Below are positions 20,248 through 59,014 of a stretch of DNA of 64,000 nt, piece after piece; the first letter of the stretch is position 1; every line of letters starts with the position of its first letter. The stretch is from Megalonaias nervosa (Eukaryota; Mollusca; Bivalvia; Unionida; Unionidae). The stretch is taken from contig JAECUM010004424.1 of NCBI GenBank assembly GCA_016617855.1, positions 60,338-124,337 on the forward strand, written 5' to 3'. A model generated the notes under the pieces. It was not told where the DNA came from. It searched no databases and was given only the letters and a program-made list of their open reading frames with translations. The translations under genes were made by a program, and so were the position numbers.

Positions 20248-20322
<75 letters not shown>

Positions 20323-27906: not shown

Positions 27907-30900
27907 TTGAGTATATATATGTGGGGAGGGTGTTAAAATATATATACTTTGAGTAGATCTCACTCAAACCTGATTTTTTTTTTCATTCAATGGGTTTCTT
28001 TTTTTTATTTTAGTTGAAGTGATAAATCTGTCAAGTGTCATAATTTTCTTTGATAAATTGTGATACATCTTTGCATTTGTATGAATGGTTGCAGCATAAA
28101 GCAAATATAGGAAAGGTAACCAGTAATTCTTATTTGCTTTGAAATAATTTCAGTTATTTATTAAAATTATCAAGATGTCTAGAAAAAACACCAGTACAAG
28201 TACAGAGTTATTAAGTCCTCACAATGACATGTTGGGCATTATAAGTAAATTCCCATATTCATATAGTTACCAGGCTCATTGTGTTCATCATGCAAACATA
28301 ATTTTCGTTGTGTAAATTTATGTTTGAGTAATTGGAAATGTTTGAAAAAGAATTTATGAGGATCAGAAAACCAATCCTGTGTACATAACTCAAATACATG
28401 TGGGCATGTGTCTATACAGTTTAATTGGACATCAACGTAATCCTGACTATGTTGTATCAAGTAAAGTTAAGTAATAAAAGTAGAGTCGAGTCAGACTACA
28501 AACAACAAGGATCCTAATCTGCCATAGCATAATGCTCCTGCAGATCAGGGTCTACTGATTACTCCCAACAAACTGCACAGAGCTAAATCTCTGCATGTGC
28601 ATTATGTGATGGCAGATCTGGGTCCGTGCAGTTTGCAGTTGAACTCATCCTATAAGCAAGTATATAATGGTACATATGATATCTATTGCCCCACCATTTT
28701 TTCTAAAACATGGGTGGGTCAATGTATTTGCCACCAGGAACTTACATAACAATAATTCAATACTGTCCTATCAGATGATTAATATCACAGGATACAAAGG
28801 CCCCAATTCATACTGCCTGCACTGTTTGGTTTATTGTTGTAAGAACTGCATGTATCTACCAAACCATTGCATTTGCAGTGTAGGCCACACAAAAGAAGAA
28901 AGAAATACATTCCAATTTTTTACCCCAGTGTAAATGCAGTGGTGGGGTACATATTTTCTCATGGCCATGTTAAAATCTATGTCAAACTTTTGTAAAGCAC
29001 TCCCTCAATATAACACTGTTCCTGGCAGCCATGGAGTATACTGCCTTATAATGAGGTAGATTATTACATATATATTTTCTACTCCATAATAAAATTGGAT
29101 CCATGACCATGCCTACCCTATAAAAAGAAATAATATCATAATGAAGGACATTATATTGAGGGTGCAGTATGACCATTTGTTGGCAGTAAACTCTTAGAAA
29201 ATTGCTCCAAAATGTGATAAATATTATTAATTTCATCCTTTTAATTAATATTTTTTGGAAATTTTCTACTGCTGTAATCTGTATGTACTAGCTTATATTT
29301 TGAGACAAACTGCAAAAAACAAAGATCCTGATCTGCAGTATAATAATTTGTCTGCAGACCAGGGTATATAATGTTTTTCTACTGATTACTCCTAAAAAAC
29401 ACTGCACAGACCCAGATTTGCTAGCACATTATGTGACAGTAGATCTGGATCTGTGCAGTTTGCATTTGGACTTGTAAATGAGTATGTATGGTACTTACAT
29501 TCAAAACTTGGTATAACACTTGAACATTGTTAGGTTATACACTCATGGCAGTTGTTACATGTGCAAGCTGCTATTCACCTTTTCTTCTTACAGGTGATAT
29601 TATACCTAAATTGTTGACATACTTAGATTTTAGAACTTTATATAGTACATACCCATGATAAATGTAAACAATGGTTGAACAACTATGGAGATTTTTGATT
29701 GTCCAGATCTAAGTTACTGAGAAAATCCAACATAATAAAATGTTGTCAGCCGACAGTTTCGTAGTTATTTTTCTGGGTCATATGAATACATAAATATTAT
29801 CTTCAAGCTGTGATCTGTCCACTTTGATATTAGTATTGCAGTTTCTTTAACCATGCATATTTATAGTACATCATTATCCATACTCAGGATCTGCATGTTA
29901 TAGATCAATGATATCATTCTTCAGCAGAGAGTACTATATTACTGGAAATAGGTATAACTTTGGGTATGTGGTAGACTCTGTTGAAGAATCTGTCTCCTAA
30001 TATGTGCATCCACCCTGTCGTGTCTGCACTATAAAAGTTCTAAATTGCTAAACATATTAATATCAAATTTACACTGTAGGTGTAATTTGGGATGAAGCTG
30101 TGTTGTACATCAGAACTGTGTTGATGTGGCCATCTTTCCAAGATTCATTTTAAATTTAAATTGTTTTTTATGTATTGCAACCAGATTTACACAGGTGCAT
30201 AAAATATCCTCTTTTATTTATAGGGTACCCTCAAAAAAGAGATCTCCCTCACTTATGCCCTTTCAGGCAACCTGTACCCTGCCTTCACTAGTGGCATGGG
30301 AAGAATATCATATCTTATGTGTGTGTGCATTTGTATGTGTGTGTGTGTGTGAATGTAAGGTTAAAGGGAGAGAGAGTACATAAACTAGGTTAAAGTTTCC
30401 AATACATGTATGTCATAGAGGTATAGAATTTTGGGAAATTTACCAAACTAGAGCATCATCACTAAATTCACAAAAAAATTATTCTGCTTATTAAATTATT
30501 TGTATTGACAGATATGTACCATGTATGATGTGATATCTACATTGTACACTTTAATGATTAATTATATTGGTAAATTTCATGAGTTGAAAGTTCCTTATGA
30601 TAAGCATAATGATGTTCACAACTATGTTTGTTATCATCAATTGCATATGCATACTATAACAGTTTAAGCTTTCTTTGGTTATGTTGTGAGATCTTCATTT
30701 TGTGATTTTTTATTTTCCCGACACAGGCACAGTGAATAAAATATGTCAGATGTGCTATACAGGATGGAACCTGCAGAGTTTTGATTTAAGGCTTCAGCAA
30801 GTATACCTTGTAGCAAGTTTTAAAAATCCAGATGTTTGAGGTGGTTTTTAGGAGCAGCTCCTTTCAAACATGGCTATGGCTGAAATCAAGTCATGTGTTT

Positions 30901-33900
30901 TTCATAATATGTATATTTTGGTGAGATGTTTTACTGTAGTGTGTATATATGTGTGTGTTTGTGTACACATACATGTGAGCATGCAAATTAAGACATGTGT
31001 ATGTTGTGTTGAATTTTGTATTTCCTTGAAGAAACTCAGTGATAGATAATATTTATCCATGAGTTGATCAAAACAACCCAAAGCACTTTAGAATATGCAA
31101 TCACTCAATATTTTTCATGCATTTTCCTAATTTAACTTTTATTTCATTTCAGGATTGGACATTTTTGACCAGATTTTGCTTCTTGTCAGAAAAAGGAAAC
31201 TTTAAGTACCAAATTTCGTACCCAAAGGTATTAAAATGTTGCAAATTTCTGTATTTAAATTTTTTGTAAAGGGTCGTAAAGCAACAAGAGTTTTATGGCA
31301 ACTTAGAAAGTCATCAAAATCGATCTAGTCTTGTTTTTGCCAGTAGATAGCTATTCCTAATGATAGTCAGGACCCTGATTATAAACCACTTCAGTATAAT
31401 GTGGTCCTTCATGGTCACAGATCCCATTTTTGGATGGAGAGAGTTTCATTAATTGAATCTACCCCAGTATAAGGTCATTTATACAATATAGTACATTGAA
31501 TCTACAAAATTATAAGGTGATTTATACAATATAGTACACTGAATTTACCTCAGTATAAGGTGATTTATATAACACTGTACAGATTTATGGATCTTCAAAA
31601 CAGCAACATAATGAGAGACTACTGTTCCTTTATATAGGTATTACCTGCCCTTGATGAAAGCTATATGCAGGGAGAACATAACCTTTCAGTCATACACAAG
31701 GATAACATAATCTATCAGTCATACACAGGGACAACAAATCCTATCAGTCATACACAGGGATGACATAACCTATCACTCATACAGAGGGACAACAAAACCT
31801 ATAAGTTATACACAGGGGTGACATAACCTATCAGTCATACAGAGGGACAACATAACCCATCAGTCATACACAGGGATGCCATAACCTATCAGTCATACAC
31901 AGGGATCACATAACATATCATTCATACACAGGGATGCCATAACCTATCACTCATACAGAGGAACAACAAAACCTTTCAGTCATACACAGGGATGACATAA
32001 CCTATCACTCAGTCAGAGGGACAACATAACCTATCAGTCATACTCTGGGACAACATAACCTATTAGTGATACACAGAGACAACATAACCTATCAATCATA
32101 CAGAGGGACAACATAACCTATCAGTGATACACTGGGATGACATAACCTATCAGTCATACACAGGGATTATATAACCTATCAGTCATGCAGAGGGACAACA
32201 TAACCTATTAGTCATACACAGGGACAACATAACCTGTCAGTCATACACAGGGATAGGATAACCTATCAGTCATAAACAGGGATGATATAACCTTTCAGTC
32301 ATACACAGGGACAACATAACCTATCAGTCATATGCAGGGATGGCATAACCTATCAGTCATATGCAGGGACAACATAACATATCAGTCACATGCAGGGATG
32401 ACATAACCTATCATTCATACACAGGGACATTATATAAATATGTAACCTATCAGTCAAATACAGATAGGATATAACCTTGAATCAAACACAGGGAGGATAT
32501 AACCTATCAGTCAAATACAGAGAGGATACAATCTATCAGTCATACACAGATAGAATATAACCTATCAGTCATACACAGAATATAACCTATCAGTAATACA
32601 CAGATAGGATATAACCTTTAATCACACACAGAGAGTATATAACCTATCAGTCAAATACAGAGAGCATAATACCTATCAGTCAAATACAGAGAGCATAATA
32701 CCTATCAGTCAAATACAGAGAGCATAATACCTATCAGTCAAATACAGAGAGCATAATACCTATCAGTCAAATACAGAGAGCATAATACCTATCAGTCAAA
32801 TACAGAGAAGATAATGCCTATTAGTCAAATAGAGATGATATAACCTATTAGTCAAATACAGAGAGGATATAACTTGTTATTCAACACACAGAGGGTATAA
32901 CCCATCAATGATACACAGGGAGGATATAATAATTGCCTATTAGGCAAGTACAAAGAGGACATGACATGTAAGATCGTCAGTTGCAGGTAGGTTGAAGAAA
33001 TCATAGAATCCTTTACATGCGTTGTATAGGATAAGATATTTCCATCATAGGGATCAAAGTTTACATTGGTTGCAAGGTTTTGTACAGTTTGTAATATTTT
33101 ATTCTAATCCTGCAGGTGGAAATTTCCCATTCATTAATGGCACATAATGAAGGAATTTTTTTTCATATTCCAAGCAGTTCAAAATCATAATTATCATAAT
33201 TCATTGAGTCCATTGTATAGACGCTCAGTTTAATACTTACTTGTTAATTTTGCTGTCTTAATTACATGTAGGAACAACAGTGGGCAGGATTAAATGTAGA
33301 GGGTGTAAGAGATTCAATAAAGGTTAAAGGTCATTATCCCACATGTATAAGCTACATAGGGTGTCATTTAAACCCTGACTGTCACATTTGTTTTCAACAC
33401 TCTAAAGAGAGATGAATAACCATAAAGGTTGTGCAGTTGAGTGGGTTAACAAGAGAGCAAAGAAATACTTACAAAATGATGCAGATGCCACCATCAGTGC
33501 TGCTTATTGCCTAACTTCCTCATGAATCTTCATCTGTCACTCATTTTGCAAACATCACCAGTTCAGATAAAGATCTGACAATCTTTACCATCATGGACAT
33601 CTACTCACAACACACAAACATATTCGCACTGAACAGACTACTGGGCCAGTATCAACATAACATTTTGGCCAATGTGACCAGTCCTGGATAACCATCACTT
33701 CTGGCAGCCTCTTTACTAGCCTTCCATTAATAGTCAGCATTGAACTGAAGCACCAGATGTCAGCTGACCCTGGACTACGTCTACTCCAGCTTCTGGCACT
33801 TTCTCAGTATGTTTTACTCCCTCTACCACTGTGGCTTGGTATGGTGATCTTTGGGGCATACTCATTCATATACTCAAGATACAGACAGCATCTGACATTC

Positions 33901-36304: not shown

Positions 36305-39300
36305 ATATCCTCATTTAGTAAAGGAAATTTCCATTTTGGTTTTTATTGTCAAGTTATAATACACAAATCTGTGAAAATTCTAATCTTTCAAACTTTGAAC
36401 AAAGGGGTTGTTGAGAAAAATAATTTTCAATATATGAATTCAAACTTCCATTATTTCTCAAGATCTGAATATTTAAAACTTGGAACATTTGGTCTGAGAC
36501 TTAGTATTTTGATTTTGTCCGATAAAGAGGAGTGAAGTTACATCATAAATGTGAAATTCTATTGGATAGATATCATTTACATTGGATGTGTCTTTTCTGG
36601 TGCTGGGAAAGAGTCATGTGGATGAAAATATTATGTATAACACATTCTACAATACAACAGTTTGATGGTACTGATAAAACTAATGTTTATCAACTACATT
36701 ATTATCTTAAAATATTGCATCATCATATCTTTTTATTCAGAATTTAAAACATTTCATGTCTGTAAGCTGTCATATTACTTCAGATCCCAATTGTAAATCT
36801 GCCATGATAATAGATTTCTATTTCCCAAATACGAGAAGACAGTGAGCAAATGAGAGTTCTGATAATTTTCTTCGATTTCAATATACATAGCATAAAATAG
36901 GCACTAATTCCATGCTTGTTTAATGTCTTATTATATACTGAACTATGAATATGGAAGTGACAGTGACTTGATCCATACCATGTAAGTATCAGATGGCATG
37001 ACTTGGGCATGACACGGGTTCACATTGTTCTAACCATTACTTAATCATACCAGACAACATGGTACACTTGCCTTCTATCAAGGACTGGTCTCTATCATCC
37101 AAGTAAACACTTGAATGATGGAATCAACACTTTATTAAACAAAGCTGGGTTAATTGACTTATGCTTCAGTTTTTTTTAAAAATATATGCTTTACAACATA
37201 GTAACAAGTTGTAAGCTAATTGATGAATGAAAATCACATAATAATAATAATAATAATAATAGTAATAATGTCTTTATTTAGAGAGACAAACTCAGTTAGA
37301 TAAATACAACTAATCTCCCTTGATGCCCTCTACTAAAAAATTGAACTAAAAAAAAAATATTCATGCAAGTTTCCTCCTTCTCATGAATATCACAGTTACA
37401 GTAATTCATTAATTGGGCTATCTGGAACTGTTTAATTTCTTATTTATTTATTTAATTATTATCAGGGGTGGATTGAAATATATAGAGTTCCTATTTTACT
37501 ATGCTTAGATTGCAATCTTGATGCCTGTCATTTTTGGTAAATTGAAAAATGTTAATTACCAAAATTATTCTAAACAGGCAAGTTATAAAAATATGAACAA
37601 TGAAAATAATGATTATTTTTAGAGTTCAAATCTTAAAAAGCATTTACAATAAATACAATCCCCATTTGTTATTTAAATGCAGTTTACATAAATAATTTGT
37701 ACTTCAAAAATATGAAAAATGCTAAACATGTGATTCTTGTACACAAATAAAATACCATTTTTAATTTTTATAATTTTTGTTTCCATTTATTTACCTTTTC
37801 ACAGAAATATGGTTCTCAGAGTTTCTTACTCTACTATGATGGAAAGGATCAGTGGCAATCCGTTTATCCAGGGACAGATAAGGTAAGCATGACATTCCTG
37901 TATTTACTGTTCAGATGAAATTATTTGATTTGTAGAGCTAACAGACTCAGCTTGGATATACTGACAGATCTTGATGCACACTGTGTATACCATGGCAAAG
38001 TATTGGGGAGGTATGCTGAAGTCAGCTTGTCCATCCACCCATTACACATTTGTTTATTTACTATCTCTAGAACCCTTTGAAATATCTTTATGAACCTTTG
38101 TGGGCTTTTGTATCATGACTAGACATTGTGTCCTGTTAATACAGAAGACTGCCTCATCAGAATTTCAGGAATTCTCCCCATTTTATTACAAAATTTGTAT
38201 GCAAATTTGTTACATTCTTCTCTGGGTAATGTCTCTTGAAGCATCTGAGATGTCTTTATGAAACTTGGTGTACATCTGTATGATCACAACAGAAGTGTTC
38301 CAGATAAGATATAGGTTTGCCACATGGGTACTTGTAGAGTTTTATTGTAGACTGTGTCCATCTATTACATTCTTCTCCAATTAATATCTCCTGAACTGCT
38401 TGCGAGATTTCTTTATCAAACTTTTATTACATGATTTAGAGAAAAAATTTGATTTAGTGTTGTACAGAAGTCATTTTCACCTGCATGATGCTAGAACATA
38501 AAGCTATTACATAATGAAAAAGTCAATAATTTTCATGACCATCTAACATGAAGTGTGACTATGCAACACAGAAATATGACATATCACATGATGTTGTACC
38601 ATTCAGTGAAAAACCATCTGTCATGGGAACCATGTAGTGATAAGAATTATCATTAAGTTTTTGAACAAGTGACAGAATTTCAGGAATTTAACAATGAAAG
38701 AAAGAGAAAATTAGTTATGCCTGCAGTATTTAAGTTCTTGGACAGTTTTGTTTAGAAATAATTTTCATTCGTCATAAGTTTTTGATCATAAAAAAATCTA
38801 AACATTTTTTGGCTTCCAAAGATTTAAGGTAAATGGAGTGGATACCAAAATAGAGGCTTAATCAAGTGCTAGTCATTGTCTACTATCATTTATCACATTA
38901 TTCAATATTATACATTGTCTAATATCATTTATCACATTATTCAATATTATACATTGTTTGTACATATATCTGTGTAATGTTAAATTGGACACTTTACATT
39001 ATTGCAGACTTGTGATCAAAAGTATGCAGTACTGGACCCAAAAAATAACCAAGAGATTGGCCTCACAGACTTGATAAACTCTCAGTGTAGTCTAGTAAAT
39101 AGAAGTGGGGAGAACTACTATGTCTGTGACAACTACCGAAGTTTTGTTTCAGCTAGGGAACGATGGTGGTATATTGTTCTCAGCAATTGCAAGACTACAA
39201 CTAATGAGGTAATTATGAAACATCACATAATTTCCTACAAATTACCTTACTTACACCAGTATCAGAACCTATGCATATTATCTTGCAGAATCCAACATTG

Positions 39301-42300
39301 TTTTATTAGGGCCTTGCATTCAGATGCTAAAACCCTATAGTAATGACCTTTTTCATCTGCCCAACACACCTCCATCTGTCTGTCAGTCCACATTTCTTGC
39401 AACTAGCATAGCTCTGCAGCTCTTACACAGACTTTGATACAATTTGGTAGGTTAGTTACCAACATGTAAATGTGCCATTAAATGGTTTTGTTTTTACAGA
39501 TCCAGTTTAAGTGGAACTATTGCCCCTTTTTTCCTTTTCTCCACAGCAGTAGATCCTTCTGTGTTTGCACAATCTTCAAAAGTGTTTGAATTTGAGGATG
39601 GCTACATATGTACTGTGAAAATGCTTAAGAAGACTCATTAGTCATTGAAAAGTGTTTGAATTTAGAAACAAACACATTTTATTGAGAAATGTTAGATATC
39701 AGGAAAGAAATTTAAAGATCCATTAAAAGAGTTAGAATCCAGATCTTCCTGGAATTTTAATTCCATGTTGGATCATGTACATAGTTAGTAAGACTTCTAG
39801 TTAGGTCACTTAGTTGCTAATTAATATTCTTCCTCATTTAAAATTGTAATCATCTCATGATGTAAACTACTGGAAACTGTGTTGTCTGTGCCTTTATGGC
39901 TGATAAAAAACAGTCTGCAATGGGAAACATATTTTCAGACAAGACTGTCATAAGTGCTATACACACAAGGCCAAGCAATAAACAAAGTGCTATGAGTTTG
40001 TTTATGAACAGTTGTTGGATTAACAGTAACCGAGATCGCCTTAAGTCACGCTGATGGTGTGAAAATTACTGTCAGCTTATCATGGTAATGGAAAATAAAA
40101 GTCTTTAAAATCTGGCAACTCTGCTGAAACTTGTACCAATCTGGAATCCATTATGGCAGCCACAGCAGCCATTTTGAAAATCTTTGTTATCACTAATCCT
40201 CATGAGAAGAAAGTCATCTTGACATAAGATTCTCACAGGAAGACTTCTTTGATATCTAATAAGTTTAACATAAAAATGGCATTGATTTGACATCCAATAT
40301 GACTGACATGGTGGTCATTTTGTAAATCTTGTTATTGCTACTCCTAGATGGACAGTCATATTGACATGGGTTTTGACCAAAAGACTTCTTACAATGTTTA
40401 GATGGTTCTAAATGAAATAGTGCTGATGTGATATTCAATATGGCCTCCATAGCAGCCATCTTAAAAACTGTGTTGCTGATTTTCCTCATGAATGGATGGC
40501 CATATTCACATGGGATTTCACCAATAGACTTGTAATGATGTCTAGTTGGTCCTTAATTAAAATAGTGCTGATCTTACATCCAGTATGGCTGCCAAAAAGG
40601 TTCCTTTGAAACACTTGTTTTTACTATTAAAAAATATGATGATGAATTCAACACTAAGCAGCTAAAAAGAAGAAATGGTCTTATCTTGAAGTCCTAGAAA
40701 TTCCATTCTACCAGTAGAGCGTCAGTTCCTTTGAGGGGTGTTTGTGTACAATAATAACATGTATATTTTGATACTGATTTTTTTTCAGATTTTTCTATGG
40801 GATTTTGCATCTTTCAGTAAATACATCTCAGGTTCCAGTTATTGGTTTTCAGATCTCTGATATTTAGATTAAAAATGGCTATATACAGTATGCTGGTAGA
40901 GAAAACATTTATTAGTGTGAACATAGACAATAAAATGGGTGTATAGCATTGTTCCTTGTACTTTTCACAGAAGATATTGAATATTTTTGCTATTGGAAAC
41001 AATACCTAAGTTGTATTAAATTTTAAAATAACACCTTTTTGAAATCTTTTCCCAGATGAAGGGAATGTACTTGGAGTATGAGATTCACATGACAAATGGA
41101 GTCATGGAGGACTACCTGCACAGAGAATACTCAGCGGATGAGTTTTGTAAGTACTTAAATATAAGAGATTCACATGATAAATGAGGACATAAAGGATTAC
41201 CTGCACTGATAATACCCAGTGGATGAATTTTGCTTTTGAGTAGTTAAATACGTACGATTCTAGTGACTGCTGTGGACATGGGGGACTACCTGCATAGAGA
41301 ATACTCAATGGATGAGTTTTGAAGTTTTAAATATATGAGATTCACATGACAAATGGGGTCATAGGGGACTATCTGCACAGAGAACAATCAGTGGATGAGT
41401 ATTTATTTTTGAATACCTAAATATCAGATTCAAGTGACAAATGGGGACATAAGTACAATCTGCTCAGAGAATACTCTGTGGATGAGTTTTGTAAGTACTT
41501 GAATATATGTGATTTAAGTGACAAATGGGGACATAGGGAACGGCCTGCACAAATAATATGCCATGGATGAGTTTTGTAAGTATTTAAATATATGCAATTC
41601 ACATGACAAATGGGGAAATAGGCACATTCTGCACAGAAACTACTCAGCAGATGCATCATGGAAGTATTTAAATATGAATTTATTGTATATAATTTCACCC
41701 TTTATCATAGAACATTTGAGATGAATTTTCAAAGTTTTTAAGTATATGATATTCACATATGGGGACATAGGGTACTGCCTACAAAAAGAATAAGCAGCAG
41801 AAGTGTTAAGTGTATTCCTGTATATATTGGTACATTCTTACACCATGTAAGATGGAACATTTCACCTGGCACTATTCTTGTTAATATGCCTGTACATACT
41901 TTTAATGGAACTATAAAGACAGTAAACTGAATGGATCATGCTAGCTGGAAACATGTCACATCCACACCCATTTCACACAGATATTTTATACAATATTCCA
42001 CCATCACCCATTCACACAGATATTTTATACAATATCACACCATCACCCATTTCACACAGATATTTTATACAATAATCCAGCATCACCCATTTCGCACAGA
42101 TCTTTAACACAATATCACACCATCACCCATTTCACACAGATATTTTATACAATAATCCACCGTCACCCATTTCACACAGATATTATATACAATATCATAC
42201 CATCACCCATTTCACACAGATATTTTATATAATAATCCAGCGTCACCCATTTCACACAGATCTTTGACACAATATCACACCATCACCCATTTCACACAGA

Positions 42301-45300
42301 TATTTTATACAATATCACACCCTCACCCATTTCACATAGATATTTTATACAATATCACACCCTCACCCATTTCACACAGATATTTTATACAATATTCCAC
42401 TGTCATTCATTTCACACAGATATTTTATACAATATCACACCATCACCCATTTCACACAGATATTTTATACAATAATCCACCGTCACCCATATCACACAGA
42501 TATTTTATACAATATCACACCATCACCCATTTCACACAGATATTATACACAATAATCCAGTGTCACCCATTTTGCACACATTTTACACAATATCACACCA
42601 TCACCCATTTCACACAGATATTTTATACAATATCACACTATCACCCATTTCACATAGATATTTCATACAATATCACACCCTCACCCATTTCACACAGATA
42701 TTTTATACAATATTCCACTGTCATTCATTTCACACAGATATTTTACACAATATCACACCATCACTCATTTCACACAGATATTTTATACAATAATCCATCA
42801 TCACCCATTTCACACAGATATTTTATACAATATCACACCATCACCCATTTCACACAGATATTTTATACAATAATACCTTATTTTGACCATTTTGATCATA
42901 ATTATCAGTGATGGTGATATTTTTATGGTGTGGTATAATGTTGCTCAACCATATGGCACACATAATTACCAACTTAAGGGTGAACCTTGCCCAAGAGTGC
43001 ATGCTTGCCAATGCCCTTTGACAGTAGGGTAATTCCTCATTGATGTATTGACTTTCACACTGTGAGATAATAGTTTTTTATGTGATCTTGATGAAGAAGC
43101 TTTCTGATGATGTAATCTCTGAGTTTTTAAATAAAAGCAGTTTAAATGAAAAATTTTAAATATGTATACTAATGAGTTTAATCATTTTATCAATATATTT
43201 TATTTGCATATTTTTTATAGGATTTTTATCTCATTACCTTTTTATCTTTATTTTATTGGAGTATAAGTTTATTTTTTCAGAAGGATTTTCTTTAAGGCAA
43301 TTTTAACTTTACCATTTTTACTACATAATTTGTATTTAGCACTATCTACCTGAATTGTGCAGATGAGTTGTTAATCCCTCTGCATCCATTCATCCATCCA
43401 TCCACCCTTTCAGAATATATTTATTCACTATCTGTAAATCTGTACTTATTTTAAAGGAATGATTATTAGAATGAAGAGGAATCAAAATGTTCTTAAAATT
43501 GGCATTATTATTTAGATTCACAAGGAATTATCATTCCAAACATGCATTTTTCATGGATTGGTAAATTTCTATTTCACTAGTTGACTCAACCTGTTTTTAA
43601 ACATTTTGTAATGTGGGAAAAGTTTATACTTGAAATATTTTTTTAATCTGCTTATGGAATGAGAAGTTTATGGTCCAAATTAATTATTCCATAATTGAGG
43701 GTTCTAAGATTTATGACTTGCAAAATGTGTTAGATAACATTTTGAAGTCAAAATACCCTTTTCTGTTACTTTACTCATTTTTATGAGATTTAAGGATTTA
43801 GTAAAGCTTTTCCAAGGAGATGTTTTCAGATAAATCAGATGGTATTTGAGAAGGCACATGAAACTGTTCATGTAACCAAAGCACTGGCTGGTTTGCATTC
43901 TGCTTGATCAACCAATCAGAAACAATGTTGCTGTTGGAACATTTCCATGAAGGGAATACACACTGTGATTCAAATCACTCACATTTAATCTCCATTAACA
44001 TGAAATATGTATAAATCTGAATTTATTATAATCTTCAATTATATATTTGGGTAATTTTATTTAACAATCCATTCTTTTGGCAAAAATGATGTGATCGGCT
44101 AGCATGCATTTCAGTGGGCTACTAAGGGTCATCTCAAAATGGCTGCACACTACAAACAATGTAATGTATTGAAAATAGGCTAGTAGAAAATTGTACAAAC
44201 TAGTGGTTTAACAATATACATAATGATTTTTGTGTTGTCTGTCCCTCCTCCTGTTCACAGTAGCTCAGTTAATAAATTAGCGGACTCATGATTGAAAGGT
44301 TGTGGGTTCAGTACATGCTTACACCAGTCTGGGTCAGCCTCATTGGTGTGTCCTTGGGAAGGCACTTAGCTCACTTTTTCTCACATGATATAGCCATGAC
44401 TGTGTTAAAATTGCTGTTAAAACCCACAAATCCTGTTTGCCCTTCCATCATACTTACCTTGACAGCAAGATATCTTAAGAACTGTGGAGCCAAAACTGGA
44501 TATTTGGATATATTAGGTGTGTCCCAAAATCTGGTTAGGCTCTGGTGATGGACATTTTTCAATGTCACAGTGCCATAGTTTGTGTTTAGTACATCAGCTT
44601 GTAAGCAACTAAGAAATCTCAGATATGATTTGACTCAATTGGATCAAATTTGATAATCAGATGACTTAGAGGATCCAATCATCTTTATACCTTTGGATGA
44701 CCTTGATCCAACTTTCAGGGTAACAGAGTGACATTCTGTTTGCTTGAGTTGGTGTTCACAATTTACAAGAAACAAGATATCTCAACAACTGTTATACCAA
44801 ACCAGTCCTAATTACATATTTAGATGCCTTGAGAAGATAAACCTGGATAGGTTTTGGTGATTGTGACCAGTCTTTCAAGACTTAATTGGGATACTTTGAA
44901 TTTAGTGAAGGAATCAACTTATAGTCAAGTATAGTACTTCAGTTTGTAAGCAAAATATCTCCAATCTGGTTTGATAAAATTGGGTCAAGTATTATATGAG
45001 AGTATTACATAAAGATGCCTTGGGGGTTCCAAGACCTGATCAGCTTTTTAGTGACCCTGAGCAAATTTTCTTGTTTACAGATTAAATTCTCTATGCAGTC
45101 AGGCTTTATGCATCATTGGTGTGTTTGTAAAGGAAGTTTATTTAGTATGTAAGCAAGATTATATTAGACTAGAAACTGCAAACAACAAAGACCCAGATTT
45201 GCCATAGCATAATGCCCCTACAGATCAGGGTCTGTGTTGTTTGTTCTATTGATTACTCCTAACAAACTGCACAGAACCAGATCTGCAGGTGCATTATATG

Positions 45301-48300
45301 ATGGCAAATCTGGGTCTGTGGAGTTTGCAGTTGGACTTGACTTGTAATCAAGTACATATGGTAATTGAACATCCACTCCCAGAACCAAAATTATATCATG
45401 TTTGGTCAAATGGTAAAAGAGATATCTTTGTCACATAATGACTTCCCCTTCTGGGCACAACCTTTTACCTTTTGACCTAAAGAAAGTTATAGTCATTCTA
45501 TGTTACATTCATTATGAAATGTTATTTAATTCACCTTGCTAGATTTTTCCATTCCTTTGCAAGTTCTGTTTTGTTGGAATGACATTAATTTTCATTCTGG
45601 TATTAAAGACATGTTTTCATTTTCAGAAACGTGTCCCATCTGGCTATCATTATTATCAGTATCATTACAATTATTACTGTATTGATGATAGTGATGACTT
45701 AGATGTGGATGTTGTTGGTGGTGATGATGGATGTGTTCATATGGTGATAAATGTCATTGCTTTTGTTTTTGCTGTTGTTTTAATCCAGAAATGAATTGAA
45801 TAGATTCATTACTTCAAACCTCTTCTATTTTTAAGTACACTGTTAAGGTACAGTTGTTCTCATATAGCATAAGTTAAATACGGTGGTTAGTACAATTACA
45901 CAATAATTAAGTTTTGGTTCATTTGAATTGAATATGCATACCAAATGAATCATGAAACATGCATTATGGTAGGGATTTAAGAAATCAAGTATTTAACAAA
46001 GTAATTTTGGGTTTTGTCTTAAATATTTTTCTATAATTTGTGTATGCTTATTTTCAGACATAACACCAATGGCCATTGCTTTTCTCCTTGCCAACTGTGT
46101 TTTGATGGTCCTTGCAATCATCTGTGCATGTAAGTTTTGGTTTTGTTCTAAGTTTTACACCCATATGGTACATTTATTTATGTATGTATTTTTATTATAC
46201 TACTGCTTTGAGGCAGTTGGGCACAGTGGTATACAGTGATACATGGTGGTACACAGTGGTATACAGTGGCACATAGCGATACACAATGGTATACAGTGGT
46301 ACACTGGTATAAAATGGTAATACCAGGATTCAAGCTGCACACCTAGTTGTATGTTTGTACATTCATTTGTCCATCCTACTGAGAGTAAGTTTAAATGGCA
46401 GTGTGGTGCATATTAGGTCCCCAAGGGTACACAAAATACAAACTGAAATAATATGACCAACTTTCAGGGTCGAAAGAGTTACACCAAAGATCCACATGTA
46501 ATCCCAATGTCTTTTCCATTGGTACCAGTCTAATTTGATAAGACATTATCATAAGACTGGAACTCAGTGAAATCGGTGTCACCTGATCATTTGGTCTGTG
46601 ATATCAATTTACACAACAGTGATGTCATAACCAAAGCAGCTGGTTTGGAAACCTCCTCCATAAACTGTAGTGTTTGCTTGGTAACTTCACATCTGCATGG
46701 AAACAAATCCAAGATTCCATGCTTTCATGAAGATGGAATTTGATAGCTGTCGGTGGCGTGATACATACCAGAAGTTTAATGCAGCAGTGAGCAAAAATGT
46801 CTTTTTCACATCTTGCCACCTAAGTTGTAATGTAGGTGTCTCGTGGGATGAACATGGGATGTAAAATGTCTTGCCTGCTGTGACTTCTTTTTTTTTCAAA
46901 AGGTTATTTAACATAGCAAAAAAGCCTGTCTCAATCCACTTAAGGTCTGGTATCTTATGAGCTTCTCTTCATTAAAGGCCATGTTATCTGATGACCATTT
47001 ATAATGCTTATAAATTGAGTCAAACTGCAAACAACGAAGATACTGATTTGCCATAAAATAAATGTGCCTACAGATGTCTGTGTTTGTTCAACTTATTAAT
47101 CCTAACAAACTGCACAGTCCCAGATCTGCTGGTGCATAATGTACTGGCAGATCTGGTCTGTGCAGTTTGCAATTGGACTCGTCTTATAAGCGAGTGTATA
47201 CAGTATGTCATCTGGTTATGTTAATTATTTTGATACTTTGAGAGTCTCAGTATTTGCCACTTAACAAAATGTTTTGATAATAGGTTTAATACATACATCT
47301 GATTTTTGTACTGTACTGCAATCTGGGATACATTGGTCCCTTACTACAATGCCATTTATAACACAGGTCACTTTTTATTACTCCCATGAACAGTTATAGT
47401 TCAAGTCACACAGGTCATGTAGGCATTCAGCACCGATTATTTCAGTAATGGGTGTCATTTTTTAGAATTTGATTCTACATACCTTTAATTGGCAAATATT
47501 CACTTCATTTGGATTTGTATACATCCATATTCCTTTGGAAGGTCATTATTTATATGCCCCAATAGGTGCATACGTCAAAATCAATGTTAAAGTATGTAGA
47601 CATTTTTGGACAAAATGAACCTTAAGGTGTGATCCAGTACAATCCGTATTGAATGGCATGCACTGTGATGTCACAATGAAAGCTACGCATATTGATAAAC
47701 AAATTCGTACTACCCTCAATTGTGATGATTCCACTCGACACGCTGTTATTTTGACTCAAGCTTAGTACATGGCCACCATTGTAAAAGTCCATAGCGATAG
47801 ATAATTTTCATCTGGAAGTTTCTTGGTGACAGTTAAGGTGCAGAGCATTCAATAATCAGGACTGAATAGACTTTGGTTAAAGAAAATTAGTTTTAAATTT
47901 TTAAAGAACAATTTATATTTAATTTAAAATGAGTAAATGTGCATACATAACCCGTGTGACTTGTACTATATAAAAAGGGAATGCTTATGACACAGCCTTG
48001 TGGAGCATACCGCCCTACAAGACTTTTTTACTTAGAACATAGATTATTTTTATTATTCCCATGAACAGTGTTATAAAGAGGGAGTGCTGTTATGACACAG
48101 CCTTGTTGGGGCATAACTCAATACAAGGCTTTCTTGTTTATAACATGAGTCACTTTTTTATTACTCCCATGAACAGTGTGATAAAGATGGAGTACTGTAT
48201 TTGTATAGTGTCGTCCACTTTACAGTATATCACATTTGTACTCTATTGCCTGTAATTTGTTATACAGTATATCACATTTGCACTCTACTGGCTGTAAGTT

Positions 48301-51300: not shown

Positions 51301-53593
51301 TGATTAACAACTATATAAATCAACCAAAATTATGTCCAAGAAAGACAGCATATTTTTCTTAGCGTTAGTAAAAATGCAAAAAAAAATCAAGCAACCAGTT
51401 TAACTTCATTTATCAATTAAACTCATTAAGTACACGTCATGTATCAATTAAAACTCATTAAGATGTCTGGAAGCAAGAAAATATACTGTTTCTTCAGACA
51501 TGTGTGCATTTTAAATGGCTATATGGCTCTGTTAATCATGTTTTAGAGGTTTAAGCTGTTGATATCTTGGTATTGGAACATGGAAAGATGTTTAATCAAT
51601 AAATTAAATTTTACTATCAAATACCAAGAATAACATAATGTGGAAATTTGCAGCAGATACAATATAAATCATATGTAATGACTGATGCATAGAAAATAAA
51701 TTAAAATAAAAATGCATAGAAAATAAACTTTCAGCGGATATATACCATAAAACTTAGTGGAAGTAACCAAGAAAAAAAGACACAAAGACTCTGGTATTCC
51801 CTTGGCTATTTTTGGAAGCTTTGATTAACTACATGTCACATGCTCATATTCAACATTGCTTGGTTTTATTTTTATTGTTTTGCTGTCTGTGCAAAAACAG
51901 AACTTGCTATAAATCCTGCTTGAGAAGCAAAGTTCCTTCCAACCAAATTAGGCCATTGTTACCTACTTTATTGTTCCATTTAGCCATGTTGTGTTTTTGT
52001 CACCTGGTCCATTTTTGAGTCAGTGTTGTCAAACAACAGAGAATTGTGAGGAGTATGCCATATGCATCAGTTATAGTAAAATGGATTACTGTGATCTGTG
52101 TTTGACTGTACTATGTTTGATTGTACATTCCAGCAGTATTTTTTCTGTTGACATTTAAGTCTATTTGCTGATACTTGTTGCATGATTAGAATGTAAACAA
52201 AATCCTTTAAAGCAGATGTTTTGTACAAACCCCATTTAAATTGCATCACTTAGGATGAATGTTAAGAGTTCTACACTAAGTTGCTCTCAGTACCATATCG
52301 GTAGGTTTTCATGATATATTTTAAATCTTTAATGTTCACTTTTTGAGTGGGACTCCTATTAACTTCTGTGAACTTTACATTGATGTATGTTACTGTATTT
52401 CTATTTACTAAAAGAAGGAGTATAATGTGCAATAGATATATGCAATAATTCCTCATTGGCGGTAAGCTGTTGGTAAAATGCACCTGAAATATGATTTTCT
52501 TGCAATCTCTTACCAAGCTCTCTGTTTGTTTCACTTGATTTTGTGAGTTAAATTAGTATCACAAGTGGATCTCACATGCATTTAATCAGTTTCATTTTTT
52601 TAATATATGGATGTATTCATGAAAAATTTTGAATATTATGGACATAAAAGTAAAGTAATTTCTTTTATGAGAAGACATTGAAGTTTACTGTGTTCTGATT
52701 GATTAAATTGACACCTGCTGTCTTTGCTAAAAAGTTATATAGTGTTGTACTTTTAGAAAGCAAAGAGGACATTTTCCCAACCCAAACTGCCAGTATTCCC
52801 CAAAATTTAATAAACCCACATATCTTGATAATTACTGAGAGACAGAGATACATACAATGCCTCCCCCCTCCACAACAACTAAACCAAGGTGCATTACTGC
52901 TCATGTGCTCATTTGAGAGTGCTTTAAGATTCCAATGGTTCACCAGACATTTTTACTGCCAGTGTACATGTAGCTAGTCCAAACATGCCATTTTACTGTG
53001 TTATTTGGTCAAGCAATGTAGCCTCACTTAAGAGGAAACTCTCAAGAGAGGAATAACTGTATAGGACACTAAGGGGACTGCAAAATGTCTTTATGGATAC
53101 GTCACTCTCAAGAGAGGAATAACTGTATAGGACACTAAGGGGACTGCAAAATGTCTTTATGGATATGTCACTCTCAAGAGAGGAATAACTGTATAGGACT
53201 CTAAGGGGACTGCAAAATGTCTTTATGGATATGTCACTCTCAAGAGAGGAATAACTGTATAGGACTCTAAGGGGACTGCAAAATGTCTTTATGGATATGT
53301 CCTCTTTATATAGATCTTAATAAACTTAAGAAAAAGGATTTAAAATTGTCCTTTATTAGTAGGTATCCTTTGTATAGTGATGTCCTTTTAAACAGGTTTC
53401 TAAATTTGTTTAAATTTCAGGTCATGTATTTGAATGCCTGTCTCAAATATCCTTTATCCTATTGCTGGTTTTAATGGCGAAGGGATACACAATCACCAGA
53501 GGCCGCCTTACTAACATCAGCACGGTCAAAGTGGCTGTCTTCTTTACTCTCTATGTTATTGCATATGCAGTACTTATTATTTGGGAACCATTT
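21159..53593 (+). CDS. TMEM145: TMEM145-like seven-transmembrane protein, 5' eight exons (3' end beyond window)
   Basis: Gene-level entry; the exons are listed separately. Eight exons join in phase to 314 codons. Order: hydrophobic signal peptide (about residues 1-20); an extracellular GOLD-like domain with family motifs DWTFLTRFCFL, LLYYDG, a Cys-rich segment and RERWWYIVLSNC; then membrane segments starting at TPMAIAFLLANCVL, a HTTYKIFM loop motif, and KGYTITRGR between segments three and four. These match, in the same order, animal TMEM145 more closely than its relative GPR180. Family members have about 500 residues and seven membrane segments, so roughly the last three and the C-tail are missing here. 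TMEM145 is implicated in hearing in mammals; the general cellular role in invertebrates is not settled. All introns are GT-AG and large (0.7-9.9 kb visible). No disruption is seen. Confidence 0.93.
21448..21508 (+). repeat. Left arm of a 60-bp inverted-repeat pair
   Basis: 'gggggaaactaatgaaacac' plus 'tccccaattaagggctattgg' is the reverse complement (about 80% or better) of 23327-23393. Together the arms bound about 1.95 kb of intron 1. Confidence 0.8.
21795..22110 (-). mobile_element. tRNA-headed SINE with perfect 13-bp target-site duplication
   Basis: On the minus strand the 5' end reads 'ctggtggcttagtggttaga' (A box), then 'gcgtccgcctcggatgtggg' and 'gtgggtttgaaccccggctg' (B box), a tRNA-like RNA polymerase III promoter. 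The 3' end is 'aaagctgcgttaaaaatcc' running into CA repeats. The 13-bp sequence AAGATAAGAGTGT occurs exactly at 21782-21794 and 22111-22123, framing the element. No full tRNA cloverleaf is claimed. Confidence 0.9.
22310..22344. repeat. (GT)n-rich microsatellite
   Basis: 'atgtgtatgtgtatgtgtgt' followed by more GT units. Confidence 0.8.
23327..23393 (-). repeat. Right arm of the 60-bp inverted-repeat pair
   Basis: Reverse complement of 21448-21508, including 'caggcact', 'gggggaaactaatg' and 'acactccc.aattaag.gcta'. See the finding on this pair. Confidence 0.8.
27523..27566. repeat. (CT)n microsatellite
   Basis: About 22 CT units. The Leu-Ser open frame across it is an artefact. Confidence 0.95.
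27850..27904. repeat. (GT)n microsatellite
   Basis: About 27 GT units. The Thr-His frame on the other strand is an artefact. Confidence 0.95.
28484..28655. mobile_element. Foldback MITE, copy A
   Basis: The left arm 'caaacaacaaggatcctaat' continues 'ctgccatagcataatgc'. The right half, 'aaactgcacagagctaaatc' to 'cagatctgggtccgtgcagt' then 'ttgcagtt', is itself a near-palindrome. The same sequence occurs at 29281, 45150 and 46995. No coding potential. Confidence 0.85.
29281..29492. mobile_element. Foldback MITE, copy B
   Basis: Outer ends 'gtatgtactagcttatattt' and '...cttgtaaatgagtatgtat' are inverted to one another. The centre holds 'aaacactgcacagacccaga' and 'agatctggatctgtgcagtt'. A short extra stretch ('tatataatgtttttc') makes it longer than copy A. 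Confidence 0.85.
31153..31227 (+). CDS. TMEM145: TMEM145-like exon 2
   Basis: Acceptor 'tttcatttcag', donor gtatta, phase 0 at both ends, 25 codons. It encodes DWTFLTRFCFLSEKGNFKYQ then ISYPK, which matches the family signature DW-x-F-L-T-R-F-C-F-L-S at the start of the extracellular domain. Confidence 0.93.
31450..31585. repeat. Tandem repeat, about 49 bp x 3
   Basis: Unit like 'agtataaggtgatttataca' plus 'atatagtacattgaatctac'; the third copy is truncated. Confidence 0.75.
31655..32965. repeat. Minisatellite, about 29-bp unit, about 44 copies
   Basis: The consensus is near 'cataacctatcagtcataca' plus 'cagggacaa'. Around 32640-32820 a homogenised sub-block has the unit 'cctatcagtcaaatacagag' plus 'agcataata', repeated almost perfectly at exactly 29 bp. 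There are no spacers, so it is a minisatellite and not a CRISPR array. Confidence 0.95.
33400..34900 (+). other. Probable degraded upstream part of the DIRS-like element, or unclassified DNA
   Basis: This stretch is visibly less AT-rich than its surroundings, with a 63-codon frame at 33757-33948 and a 115-codon frame at 34113-34460. The base composition and position suggest transposon origin. I could not align it convincingly to reverse transcriptase or RNase H. Confidence 0.3.
34900..35945 (+). pseudogene. Broken DIRS-like tyrosine recombinase (element 1)
   Basis: The frame at 35161-35391 includes SFEPLSKALLTHISAKTFIL followed by VTLVTASRISEIYAL. This matches the DIRS recombinase pattern 'PPFEPL...LT.KT.FL.ALASARRVSEI.AL', with the catalytic Arg of the first box kept (SRISE). 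NYLQF then follows, as in the family. Later family blocks appear in other frames: SFVLNTFLS (about 35420), 'AAQQAI' near 35790, and FINHTLT near 35900. Frameshifts and stops separate them, so it is dead. DIRS elements integrate through this recombinase rather than an integrase. Confidence 0.65.
36272..36303. repeat. (ATT)n microsatellite
   Basis: About 10 ATT units. Confidence 0.9.
37240..37270. repeat. (AAT)n microsatellite
   Basis: About 10 AAT/AAG-like units with one variant (agtaat). Confidence 0.85.
37805..37882 (+). CDS. TMEM145: TMEM145-like exon 3
   Basis: Acceptor 'ccttttcacag', donor gtaagc, phase 0 at both ends, 26 codons. It encodes KYGSQSFLLYYDGKDQW and SVYPGTDK. In vertebrate TMEM145 this position has a Cys pair followed by ILLYFDD; here the Cys pair is replaced by Gly-Ser, while L-L-Y-[YF]-D and Q-W-x-x-V-Y are kept. 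Confidence 0.9.
38020..38450 (+). repeat. Degenerate tandem repeat, about 165 bp x 3, in intron 3
   Basis: Recurring blocks 'ttacattcttctc', 'aatatctcttgaa', 'tgagatgtctttatgaaact' and 'tgtatgatcac' suggest three diverged units. A separate 37-bp duplication ('tatcatttatcacattattc' plus 'aatattatacattgt') sits at about 38883-38957, just 5' of exon 4. Confidence 0.55.
39008..39208 (+). CDS. TMEM145: TMEM145-like exon 4 (largest visible exon)
   Basis: Acceptor 'cattattgcag', donor gtaatt, phase 0 at both ends, 67 codons. It starts TCDQKYAVLDPKNNQEIGLT, has Cys residues in C-S-L-V and Y-V-C-D-N, then YRSFVSARERWWYIVLSNC. The RSF-x-S-x-RERWWYI-x-LS-x-C block is the strongest single family signature in the window. 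These Cys residues probably form disulfides in the extracellular domain. Confidence 0.95.
40100..40625 (+). repeat. Dispersed repeat of the 'atatggctgcc' type, about 145-bp period, in intron 4
   Basis: Four diverged units with cores near 40145, 40295, 40440 and 40582 ('tccaatatgactgacatgg', 'ttcaatatggcctccatagc', 'tccagtatggctgccaaaaa'), each followed by 'agcagccattttgaaaatc'-like and 'cctcatgaatggatgg'-like blocks. Confidence 0.7.
41056..41146 (+). CDS. TMEM145: TMEM145-like exon 5
   Basis: Acceptor 'cttttcccag', donor gtaagt at 41147, starts phase 0 and ends phase 1. It encodes MKGMYLEYEIHMTNGVMEDY then LHREYSADEF. The family pattern L-x-Y-E-[MI]-x-[LM]-T-N-G ... H-F/E-S/Y-x-ADEF matches well; this is the end of the extracellular domain. 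The 3' two-thirds of the exon with its splice donor have been amplified downstream. Confidence 0.93.
41147..41815 (+). repeat. Exon-derived tandem repeat: about seven decayed copies of exon 5 and its splice donor
   Basis: About 87-bp units follow exon 5 head-to-tail. Each has versions of 'gattcacatgacaaatgggg', 'ctacctgcacagagaatact', 'cagtggatgagttttgtaag' and 't.cttaaatatatga'. Copies near 41492-41503 and 41567-41578 keep an intact 'gagttttgtaagt' donor. None has the exon's own acceptor or its first 15 or so bases, and reading frames are broken, so they should be intronic. Confidence 0.9.
41955..42885. repeat. Minisatellite, 40-bp unit, about 23 copies
   Basis: Two alternating unit types: 'cacccatttcacacagatat' plus 'tttatacaatatcacaccat' and the same with 'tttatacaataatccaccgt'. 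Three units make 120 bp, a multiple of three, so a 215-codon frame stays open. It is repeat, not gene. Confidence 0.97.
42890..44250. other. Intron 5 segment with nothing recognisable
   Basis: AT-rich, no repeat structure beyond short 'atccatccatc' runs near 43390. Confidence 0.5.
44255..44435 (+). mobile_element. tRNA-derived SINE, CAT-anticodon-like head
   Basis: 'agtagctcagttaataaatt' (A box) and 'gcggactcatgattgaaagg' then 'ttgtgggttcagtac' (B box) resemble a tRNA-Met-like head. The body has 'ggtgtgtccttgggaaggca' plus 'ctt', a core seen in many SINEs, and the tail 'gctgttaaaacccacaaatc'. It is degraded, and no target-site duplication was found. Confidence 0.7.
44440..45115 (+). repeat. 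Degenerate dispersed repeat with about 180-bp period, intron 5
   Basis: Blocks such as 'aagatatcttaagaactgtg', 'gatatctcaacaactgttat' and 'aaaatatctccaatctggtt', each followed by a 'gatgccttg..g...aa..tgg' and 'tggtgat..tgacc' stretch, suggest three or four diverged units. Confidence 0.55.
45145..45362. mobile_element. Foldback MITE, copy C
   Basis: The arms 'gaaactgcaaacaacaaaga' plus 'cccagatttgccatagcata' and, inverted, 'aactccacagacccagattt' plus 'gccatcatataatgc' enclose a central inverted pair 'aaactgcacagaaccagatc'. It belongs to the same family as copies A, B and D. Confidence 0.9.
46058..46129 (+). CDS. TMEM145: TMEM145-like exon 6: first membrane segment
   Basis: Acceptor 'gcttattttcag', donor gtaagt, phase 1 on both sides, 24 codons. 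It encodes (Y)ITPMAIAFLLANCVLMVLAI then ICA, a clean hydrophobic helix of about 21 residues immediately after the ADEF motif, as in the family. Confidence 0.88.
46205..46325. repeat. Short-unit minisatellite, about 10 bp x 11
   Basis: Variants of 'acagtggtat' in tandem ('gtggtacacagtggtataca'). Confidence 0.9.
46990..47208. mobile_element. Foldback MITE, copy D
   Basis: Outer ends: left 'gcttataaattgagtcaaac', right, reverse-complemented, 'gcttataagacgagtccaat', both continuing into 'tgcaaac'. The interior has 'aaactgcacagtcccagatc' and its inverse 'ggcagatctggtctgtgcag'. Confidence 0.9.
47950..48205. repeat. Tandem repeat, about 110 bp x 2-3
   Basis: Blocks 'atgacacagccttgttgggg' / 'atgacacagccttgtggagc' and 'ttattactcccatgaacagt' recur; a further single copy of the latter lies at about 47375. 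Confidence 0.75.
48210..48390. repeat. Tandem repeat, 42 bp x 4
   Basis: Unit 'acagtatatcacatttgtac' plus 'tctattgcctgtaatttgtt' plus 'at'. The period is divisible by three, so overlapping open frames on both strands are artefacts. Confidence 0.9.
48668..48895. repeat. Tandem repeat, about 44 bp x 5
   Basis: Unit like 'gctgtcccaagatgctaacc' plus 'agtcctaacctggaattttt'; later copies are more diverged. Confidence 0.9.
49306..49461 (+). CDS. TMEM145: TMEM145-like exon 7: loop and second membrane segment
   Basis: Acceptor after a long T run ('tttttcag'), donor gtagta, phase 1 on both sides. It encodes VLHARYLFHTTYKIFMFSLA then LWIFYLLLWSIGYGNYGKDG and LEERLRQVKTA. L-x-H-T-T-Y-K-[MI]-F-M and Y/W-x-x-G-x-Y-x-x-D-G are family landmarks of the segment after the first helix. 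Confidence 0.93.
49495..50030 (+). repeat. Tandem 60-bp units followed by 'atatggctgcc'-type dispersed repeat, intron 7
   Basis: 49495-49660 has three copies of 'tagctcaccttactatgaag' plus 'tcatgtgatttatggtatgg' plus 'ccttgtg'. 49740-50030 has diverged units with 'caaatatggctgctgttacc' and 'taaagtatggccaccattac'. 'tagctcacctt..' is how I expect mollusc members of this family to begin, so the two parts may be one element. Confidence 0.65.
50185..51260. repeat. Minisatellite, 34-bp unit, about 30 copies
   Basis: Unit near 'tcactgcctgatttactcag' plus 'atacacatctagta', with block-wise variants (tagtat, ggtatc, ggtagc). The 3' end is degenerate. Confidence 0.96.
51270..53030. other. Intron 7 segment with nothing recognisable
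   Basis: AT-rich. Opposing 92-codon frames at 52665-52977 overlap each other and show no domain or conserved pattern. Confidence 0.5.
53036..53300. repeat. Near-perfect tandem repeat, 66 bp x 4
   Basis: Unit 'ctcaagagaggaataactgt' plus 'ataggacactaaggggactg' plus 'caaaatgtctttatggatat' plus 'gtcact'. The copies differ by one or two bases, so this is recent. It lies only 120 bp 5' of exon 8. Confidence 0.97.
53421..53593 (+). CDS. TMEM145: TMEM145-like exon 8: third and fourth membrane segments
   Basis: Acceptor 'ttaaatttcag', donor gtaagt at 53594, starts phase 1 and ends phase 0. It encodes HVFECLSQISFILLLVLMAK, GYTITRGRLTNISTVKVAVF, then FTLYVIAYAVLIIWEPF. KG-[FY]-T-[VI]-TRGR is a family hallmark. 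In TMEM145 the next residues should read like FDPG and continue into segment five; I could not find that exon before 64000. Confidence 0.94.
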
Positions 53594-53737
53594 GTAAGTA
53601 TTGCTAAATTAATCATCATTTATGATACTATAATATACAGTTTGATATTGTAAGGAATTTGTATGGTTATTACAAACAATCGTACCATCACGTGACATGA
53701 ACATGCTGATTACTTTGAATTTTCATTTGTCATGGCA

Positions 53738-54112
53738 TTAGGTGTTAGCCAGTAATAATGACTGGTCAGAGTGTTTGTAGTGGCTTTATGTATTAGCCAG
53801 TAATAATAAGTAGTCAGAGTGTGTTATTGTGGCTTTACATATTAGCCAGTAATAACTGGTCAGTGTTTGTAGTGGCTTTATGTGTTAGCCAGAAATAATA
53901 ACTGGTCAGAGTGTTTGTAATGGTTTTATGTGTTAGCCAGAAATAATAACTGGTCAGAGTGTTTGTAATGGTTTTATGTGTTAGCCAGTAATAACTGGTC
54001 AGAGTGTTTGTAATGGTTTTATGTGTTAGCCAGTAATAACTGGTCAGAGTGTTTGTAATGGTTTTATGTGTTAGCCAGTAATAACTGGTCAGAGTATTTG
54101 TAGTGGCTTTAT
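53738..54112. repeat. Tandem repeat, about 45 bp x 8
   Basis: Unit 'gtgttagccagtaataactg' plus 'gtcagagtgtttgtaatggt' plus 'tttat'. Confidence 0.95.
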
Positions 54113-58520: not shown

Positions 58521-58627
58521 TTTTGCATTTCGCAACTTAATAAGTGATCTCAGTTTTATCTTCAGCTTCTTGTTTGATAATATAGTTATTCCATGGGAGA
58601 TCTTACATCATATTCCAGATCTGTATC

Positions 58628-58825: not shown

Positions 58826-59014
58826 ACCTGCTGTTGCTCCCTCACTCACAATGACAAGGGAGCTGACTCACAAGTTGGTTATCTATTCCCTCTTCTACAC
58901 TTAAGCCCCTTGTTTCAGCCTTTAGTTACAAGATCCAGTCACCTGTTTGGCCCCTTAAGGCCCCTACCATGGGCTCAACACATTACATGTGGGGATTTTG
59001 GCATGGGCCTGTGT

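Follow-up and report, generated by a model that had tools for sequence, protein, structure and literature searches.

Introduction

Minisatellites whose units lie across an exon-intron boundary have been described in amphioxus as 'mirages', in which tandem units span a boundary of Adh3, of the globin genes BflGb6 and BflGb9, and of others. Either boundary can be affected, many units keep AG or GT signals, and, to judge from the authors' data, regular splicing is undisturbed. Their length is reported to be unstable, between haplotypes or in somatic cells; in BflGb6 the two haplotypes carry 6 and 3 units, and homogenisation is reported within clusters (PMC3087553). The lancelet PGBD5 gene has imperfect tandem repeats of 60 and 108 bp over 5' and 3' splice sites, and here too splicing was judged to be undisturbed (PMC3902484). 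Human internal tandem repeats (ITRs) in segmental duplications include minisatellites that have expanded at exon-intron boundaries (PMC2812944), and intron gain by tandem genomic duplication is known from the potato RdRp case (PMC4974935) and from the Rogers model, as cited in PMC3087553. In C. elegans, intronic minisatellites occur near alternative exons, exon-derived units not being described in that account (PMC4039745). Among the titles and abstract openings listed in literature searches, we found no exon-edge minisatellite in a bivalve.

Here we describe an array of this type in a TMEM145-like gene of the freshwater mussel Megalonaias nervosa. An earlier note on this DNA had proposed that exon 5 and its splice donor are repeated into the following intron, and had called this an unusually clear case of the birth of a tandem repeat; the repetition is confirmed below, and the kind was already known from the amphioxus mirages (PMC3087553). 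The window, by which we mean the whole stretch of 64,000 nucleotides analysed, corresponds to C3706:60338-124337, has a GC content of 34%, and belongs to an assembly of 2.19 Gb in 54,709 contigs.

Results

The host gene and its relatives

The window carries a TMEM145-like gene on its forward strand, and both Pfam domains of the family, TMEM145_N and GPR180-TMEM145_TM, are present. The TMEM145_N match (PF21892, Table 1) lies at exon 4, and a separate search matches exons 2 and 4; GPR180-TMEM145_TM (PF10192) lies at C3706:113736-114026, equivalent to window positions 53399-53689, in exon 8. When the three forward frames of 34001-63902 were scanned against Pfam with stops written as X, TMEM145_N was found with its best stretch at exon 4 together with a second stretch, and two further matches fell below threshold. 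A search of Rfam at the gathering threshold gave no match within the window. Exon 9 and any later exons were not found in 53594-64000, the last part of both window and contig; the gene could be truncated here or could have a long intron after exon 8. In the upstream paralogue described below, exon 9 lies approximately 1.3 kb after exon 8.

The numbering of the array's source as exon 5 was correct, four exons being placed before it (Table 1), and 41050-41145 shares 87.5% identity with residues 147-178 of the Potamilus protein P0003. When the protein predicted for the upstream paralogue was used as query, a homologue search gave 633 matches, among the best 120 of which the highest-ranking are from unionid freshwater mussels. 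These include Potamilus streckersoni P0001 (92%) and P0003 (79%), and Sinanodonta woodiana P0002 (88%) and P0004 (86% over 74% of the query). Of these best 120, 96 match the exon 5 peptide with an E value of 1e-3 or lower, and 2 have no match at all. Exon 5 is joined directly to exon 6 in five of the six unionid predicted proteins examined, the sixth, P0014, omitting exon 6; on the basis of these proteins of relatives, the proximal donor presumably ends exon 5.

A separate contig, C13738, contains a 571-codon open frame with a TMEM145_N domain at 20115-20501 and no intron in the frame. By eye this frame shows a single possible membrane segment, and its tail is long and of low complexity; it could encode a TMEM145_N-only protein or be a retrogene.

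An exon-derived array in intron 5

TRF reports an array at 41077-41675 with a period of 85, 7.0 copies and 72% matches. The repeat unit consists of exon 5 bases 22-91 with the GTAAGT donor and 15 intron bases; it contains no acceptor, and the first 21 exon bases are absent. Splitting by hand gives the exon unit followed by six clear head-to-tail copies at 41162-41674 (82-90 bp) and then two degraded ones (Table 1). When exon 5 plus 15 intron bases is compared with intron positions 41175-41815 the score is 100, against a maximum of 25 in 300 dinucleotide shuffles. Pairwise identities among the six clear copies are 63-80%, such that they differ from each other by 20-37%. No second haplotype contig was present among the genome-search matches in this one assembly.

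Several details of the earlier description require revision. The unit, given there as 87 bp, is about 85 bp by unit alignment, and the similarity begins at exon base 22 (41077) rather than at about the 18th. The estimate of about seven further copies holds when degraded ones are included, giving seven or eight, but the clear copies number six. Two copies do retain an intact decoy donor as claimed, but at 41491 and 41576 rather than at 41497 and 41573. The visible decay gradient that had been described along the array is not significant, the identity to the paralogue's exon unit giving a Spearman coefficient of -0.33 with copy order (p 0.42, 8 copies).

Table 1. Features of the TMEM145-like gene and of intron 5, in window coordinates. 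W1 to W8 are successive copies of the exon unit.
Feature	Position	Strand	Remarks	Evidence or counterpart
Exon 1	start 21159	+		alignment with P0003
Exon 2	start 31153	+		alignment with P0003
Exon 3	start 37805	+		alignment with P0003
Exon 4	39008..39208	+	TMEM145_N	PF21892, E 1.5e-18
Exon 5	41056..41146	+	array source, 91 bp; donor GT at 41147	AG/GTAAGT borders, open frame
Seed (exon) unit	41077..41161	+	85 bp	TRF and hand splitting
W1	41162..41250	+	donor lost; 82% to exon unit	positional orthologue of U1, 90% identical
W2	41251..41333	+	donor lost; 76% to exon unit	pairs with U2, 75%
W3	41334..41423	+	donor lost; 87% to exon unit	hand splitting
W4	41424..41505	+	84% to exon unit; decoy GTAAGT at 41491 (+344 from true donor)	
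W5	41506..41590	+	78% to exon unit; decoy GTAAGT at 41576 (+429 from true donor)	
W6	41591..41674	+	donor lost; 76% to exon unit	positional orthologue of U4 (86%), which keeps GTAAGT
W7	41675..41744	+	degraded, doubtful; 46% to exon unit	
W8	41745..41815	+	degraded, partial; 70% to exon unit	
40-bp minisatellite	41956..42874	+	separate array, same intron 5	
Exon 6	46058..46129	+	inferred partner of exon 5 (T/AC = Tyr)	P0003 reads SADEFYITPM
Exon 7	start 49306	+		alignment with P0003
Exon 8	start 53421	+		alignment with P0003

The array is shared with an upstream tandem paralogue

A genome DNA search with window positions 40800-42000, in which common words were skipped and the best candidates scored, gave matches outside the window in three pieces, all within C3706:32234-33755. 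These are the matching part of a second TMEM145-like gene lying in tandem 69 kb upstream, and blocks of homology relate approximately 21.0 to 54.1 kb of the window to 7.4 to 43.5 kb of C3706. Eight aligned exon blocks, all open, give dN 0.13, dS 0.37 and dN/dS 0.35 between the two genes. Exon 5 of the paralogue is at C3706:32411-32501, and exon and array together occupy C3706:32411-33165. After the exon come units U1 to U5, of which U3 is interrupted by about 220 bp of inserted sequence and U5 is degraded. The insertion in U3 is at C3706:32750-32970, and a pyrimidine-rich AG (32747) lies at its edge.

In a maximum-likelihood tree of 13 units, from which U3, U5, W7 and the copy of a third gene (see below) were left out, W1 groups with U1, W6 with U4 and W2 with U2 (ultrafast bootstrap 93, 95 and 71), the other nodes among the copies having values of 23-52. 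A 4-bp insertion is common to W1 and U1, and a 1-bp deletion is common to W6 and U4 and is also found in W4. Because the copies pair by position across both genes, we take the array to have been present already at the gene duplication, that is, to be the older of the two, and the paired copies not to have been homogenised within each gene since. The earlier proposal that the minisatellite was born from an exon-intron boundary is supported, as the exon 5 peptide is conserved, the copies are intronic, and exon and array occur together in the paralogue.

The exon 5 sequences of P0001 and P0003 (IQGMYLEYEIHMTNGDIGDYL and VKGMYLEYEIHMTNGVKEDYL) resemble those of the upstream gene and of the window gene, respectively. 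This resemblance and the presence of two such proteins in Sinanodonta (P0002 and P0004) suggest that the duplication probably predates the split of these lineages, and the Potamilus and Sinanodonta proteins appear, from pairwise resemblance, to share it. W1 and U1 differ at 9/89 sites and W6 and U4 at 12/84, fewer than the 824/2985 of pooled introns (p 5e-5 and 0.003), and, compared with the intron piece of highest similarity (11/81), neither pair is less divergent (p 0.22 and 0.65); the differences between W2 and U2 (21/83) are ordinary. The low divergence of the first two pairs could possibly reflect gene conversion between the paralogues, or weak constraint.

The exon as the source

A majority consensus of nine copies, in which positional pairs were given half weight, translates as YEIHMTNGDIGDYLHREYSVDEF and continues with GTAAGT. 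The two living exons differ from each other at 7 sites; the consensus agrees with the paralogue at 4 of these and with the window exon at 3, which is close to what would be expected of an approximate record of the common ancestral exon. It is an inexact ancestor, because at one further site it is unlike both exons (GTG, Val, as against GCG or GCA, Ala). With the exon 5 peptide matched in 96 of the best 120 of 633 homologues, the exon is the source, and the array derives from it.

Two other relationships between exon and array were considered and rejected. Exonisation of a pre-existing array is rejected because of the same 96 of the best 120 of 633 homologues, and because of a third paralogue that has the exon with one degenerate copy and no array. 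Intron gain by tandem duplication, in which a new intron is bounded by a duplicated AG and GT, does not apply to units without an acceptor; the intron also sits at the same place in the third paralogue.

The minisatellite setting

Twenty-four TRF rows with a period of at least 12, two pairs of which overlap, cover 11.7% of the window. Chance placement would put 0.11 arrays across an exon edge in the window, so the one observed is a mild excess. Arrays lie within 250 bp of exons more often than expected in the window gene and the paralogue, which are not independent (p 0.023 and 0.029), and not in the third gene (p 0.99), and within 50 bp there is no enrichment in any of the three (p 0.61, 0.66 and 1.0), a mixed picture that we do not take to show a general clustering of minisatellites at exons. 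Several of the exon borders used in this test, and in the exon scan below, are off by a few bases.

The separate 40-bp minisatellite of intron 5 (Table 1) is probably younger than the gene duplication, because its unit occurs once at the corresponding place of the paralogue (score 54, shuffle maximum 24). The paralogue has a 26-bp array of its own there, at C3706:33169-33675, the window counterpart of whose unit is weak (score 24 against a shuffle maximum of 22), and these different arrays show that arrays have been born more than once in intron 5. Intronic minisatellites at 31668-32929 (29 bp) and 53726-54113 (45 bp) have matches at corresponding places in the paralogue, so that arrays of long standing are not unusual in this gene. 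A repeat of about 200 bp, interspersed and possibly a mobile element, occurs at window positions 28484-28683, 29276-29499, 45173-45364 and 47007-47208, and also near 23.5 and 30.2 kb of C3706.

A degenerate exon 5 copy in a third paralogue

Contig C11383 carries a more distant TMEM145-like gene that matches Sinanodonta P0005, and a single degenerate exon 5 copy lies in its intron 5 (68% over 123 bp, E 2.6e-7; L025 about 5147-5263), with a local score of 45 against a shuffle maximum of 31. The copy begins at the AG that precedes the exon and runs 30 bases beyond the exon end, at an offset of 155 bp, and because these borders differ from those of the array units it looks like an independent duplication. 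Of the 26 exons that were scanned in the three paralogues, exon 5 alone gave clear copies crossing an exon border, and it did so in all three genes; a weak 27-bp match also reaches 7 bases into window exon 7 across its start (E 0.007), and the other matches, at u7, u10 and t3, are short and intronic.

Such a distribution would be expected if exon 5 were a recurrent hotspot of duplication, with the array and the third paralogue's copy as two outcomes of one instability. We consider this unlikely. There are at most two duplication events, which makes the hotspot a lead rather than proof, and the match at the edge of exon 7 shows similarity at another exon edge. The proximity of arrays to exons is seen at 250 bp in two genes that are not independent but is absent at 50 bp and in the third gene.

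The decoy donors

The sequence GATGAGTTTT/GTAAGTA is identical at the true donor (41147) and at both decoys (41491 and 41576), and any donor 9-mer score is therefore equal for the three. The paralogue likewise has two decoy GTAAGT sites (C3706:32997 and 33081). Read-through past the true donor adds a 12-residue tail, CKYLNIRDSHDK, before the first in-frame stop, a TGA at 41182..41184 (+), and the paralogue has the same 12-residue tail with a TGA at 32537. Because read-through stops at 41182, an mRNA spliced from a decoy donor would encode no more than a truncated ectodomain, and such a message would be expected to be degraded.

The decoys could nonetheless be functional, with U1 binding or occasional distal use either tuning the splicing of exon 5 or making a truncated TMEM145_N ectodomain that ends in CKYLNIRDSHDK. 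The two decoys in each paralogue, the identical tail and stop in both, and the lower divergence of two of the three unit pairs relative to pooled introns are consistent with this, as is a pyrimidine-rich AG in the paralogue at 32747, 250 bp before the decoy at 32997, which raises the possibility of a cryptic exon between the two. However, the common tail and stop are explained by shared descent, and the sole pyrimidine-rich AG (at least 11 of 15) of the window array, at 41709, is 3' of both of its decoys. Retention of donors is also at the level expected by chance: complete hexamers are present in 3/10 scored copies (W4, W5 and U4; the split U3, which also has GTAAGT, was left out of the scoring), where 3.45 are expected from each copy's own identity, and donor bases agree with the consensus in 45/60 cells as against 648/790 elsewhere (p 0.17). 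Donors have thus been lost at about the chance rate, with no sign of selection on them, and we regard functional decoys as very unlikely. Competition of the decoys with the true donor, which the earlier note had suggested, would be no more than a possibility, given this rate of loss and units that lack an acceptor. A broader proposal, that the array is a retained splicing device whose spare 5' splice sites bind U1 and shift exon 5 to the read-through form, and that exon 5 is a recurrent hotspot for such devices, strikes us as highly improbable; were it true, the read-through form would end after 12 extra residues and be a TMEM145 ectodomain without the membrane part.

Copies as former exons, and assembly

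Coding-like sequence survives in some copies, as in YEIHMTNGVIGDYLHREQSVDEY (41334-41402), and the copy in the third paralogue covers the exon from the preceding AG, as might be seen if the copies had once been functional duplicated exons, for instance mutually exclusive ones, whose function was later lost. The units in the window gene and the paralogue nevertheless begin at exon base 22, with neither an acceptor nor the first 21 bases, and stops interrupt the exon frame of W1 and unit U1, leaving this origin a very slim chance. False expansion or rearrangement of the repeat during assembly, conceivable where an assembly is fragmented into 54,709 contigs, can be discounted almost entirely, as six clear copies 20-37% apart are not expected from misassembly of one sequence and the series recurs in the paralogue, where it has changes of its own.

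Discussion

The array most likely arose through neutral duplication in tandem of an exon edge, in a gene that is rich in minisatellites, and we consider the following course of events highly probable. In an ancestral mussel TMEM145-like gene, 85 bp containing the end of exon 5, its donor and 15 intron bases would have been duplicated in tandem, and the unit would then have expanded to at least six further intronic copies, probably by slippage or unequal exchange, a mechanism that we infer. The whole gene would later have been duplicated in tandem, both genes inheriting the array, and its copies would since have decayed one by one, homogenisation within each gene being slight or absent. Exon 5 would presumably still end at the proximal donor, and the units, because they have no acceptor, would be silent intron ballast with a few leftover pseudo-donors. 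The array, its origin from exon 5, its greater age than the gene duplication and the loss of its donors at the chance rate are read from the sequence itself; the array is presumably without function.

These observations place a mirage-type exon-edge minisatellite in a mollusc, in a form that can be ordered in time. The copies provide a natural measure of the rate at which spare donors are lost without visible selection (3/10 kept, 3.45 expected), and the locus offers a way to test how splicing passes over identical donors that lie 344 and 429 bp downstream.

Among the systems described previously, intron gain under the Rogers model and in potato RdRp resembles the mussel array in the tandem duplication of a splice signal, but the mussel copies lie inside an existing intron and form no new one (PMC4974935). 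The human ITRs are likewise boundary minisatellites in duplicated genes; they are of recent date, differ from one paralogue to another and can give rise to new introns, whereas the mussel array is old and apparently silent (PMC2812944). The imperfect repeats of lancelet PGBD5 also overlap splice sites, but in another gene and phylum, and the 108-bp repeat is a triplication (PMC3902484).

The closest likeness is to the amphioxus mirages, which are also boundary-crossing tandem units with kept splice signals (PMC3087553). The mussel array is a head-to-tail tandem repeat of minisatellite unit size (period 85, 7.0 copies), its unit crosses an exon-intron boundary of the host gene, and splice signals are kept in some repeats (GTAAGT at 41491 and 41576). 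Unlike the mirages it affects the donor side only, with units of 82-90 bp in a mollusc host (PMC3087553). Homogenisation within a cluster, which has been reported for BflGb6 but does not enter the definition of a mirage, is not seen here, where three unit pairs group by position across the paralogues; two paralogues carry the mussel array, which is old, whereas that of BflGb6 is homogenised and varies between haplotypes (PMC3087553). Judged from its sequence, the mussel array is mirage-like, having the features by which mirages are defined and differing from them in phylum, in age and in its lack of homogenisation.
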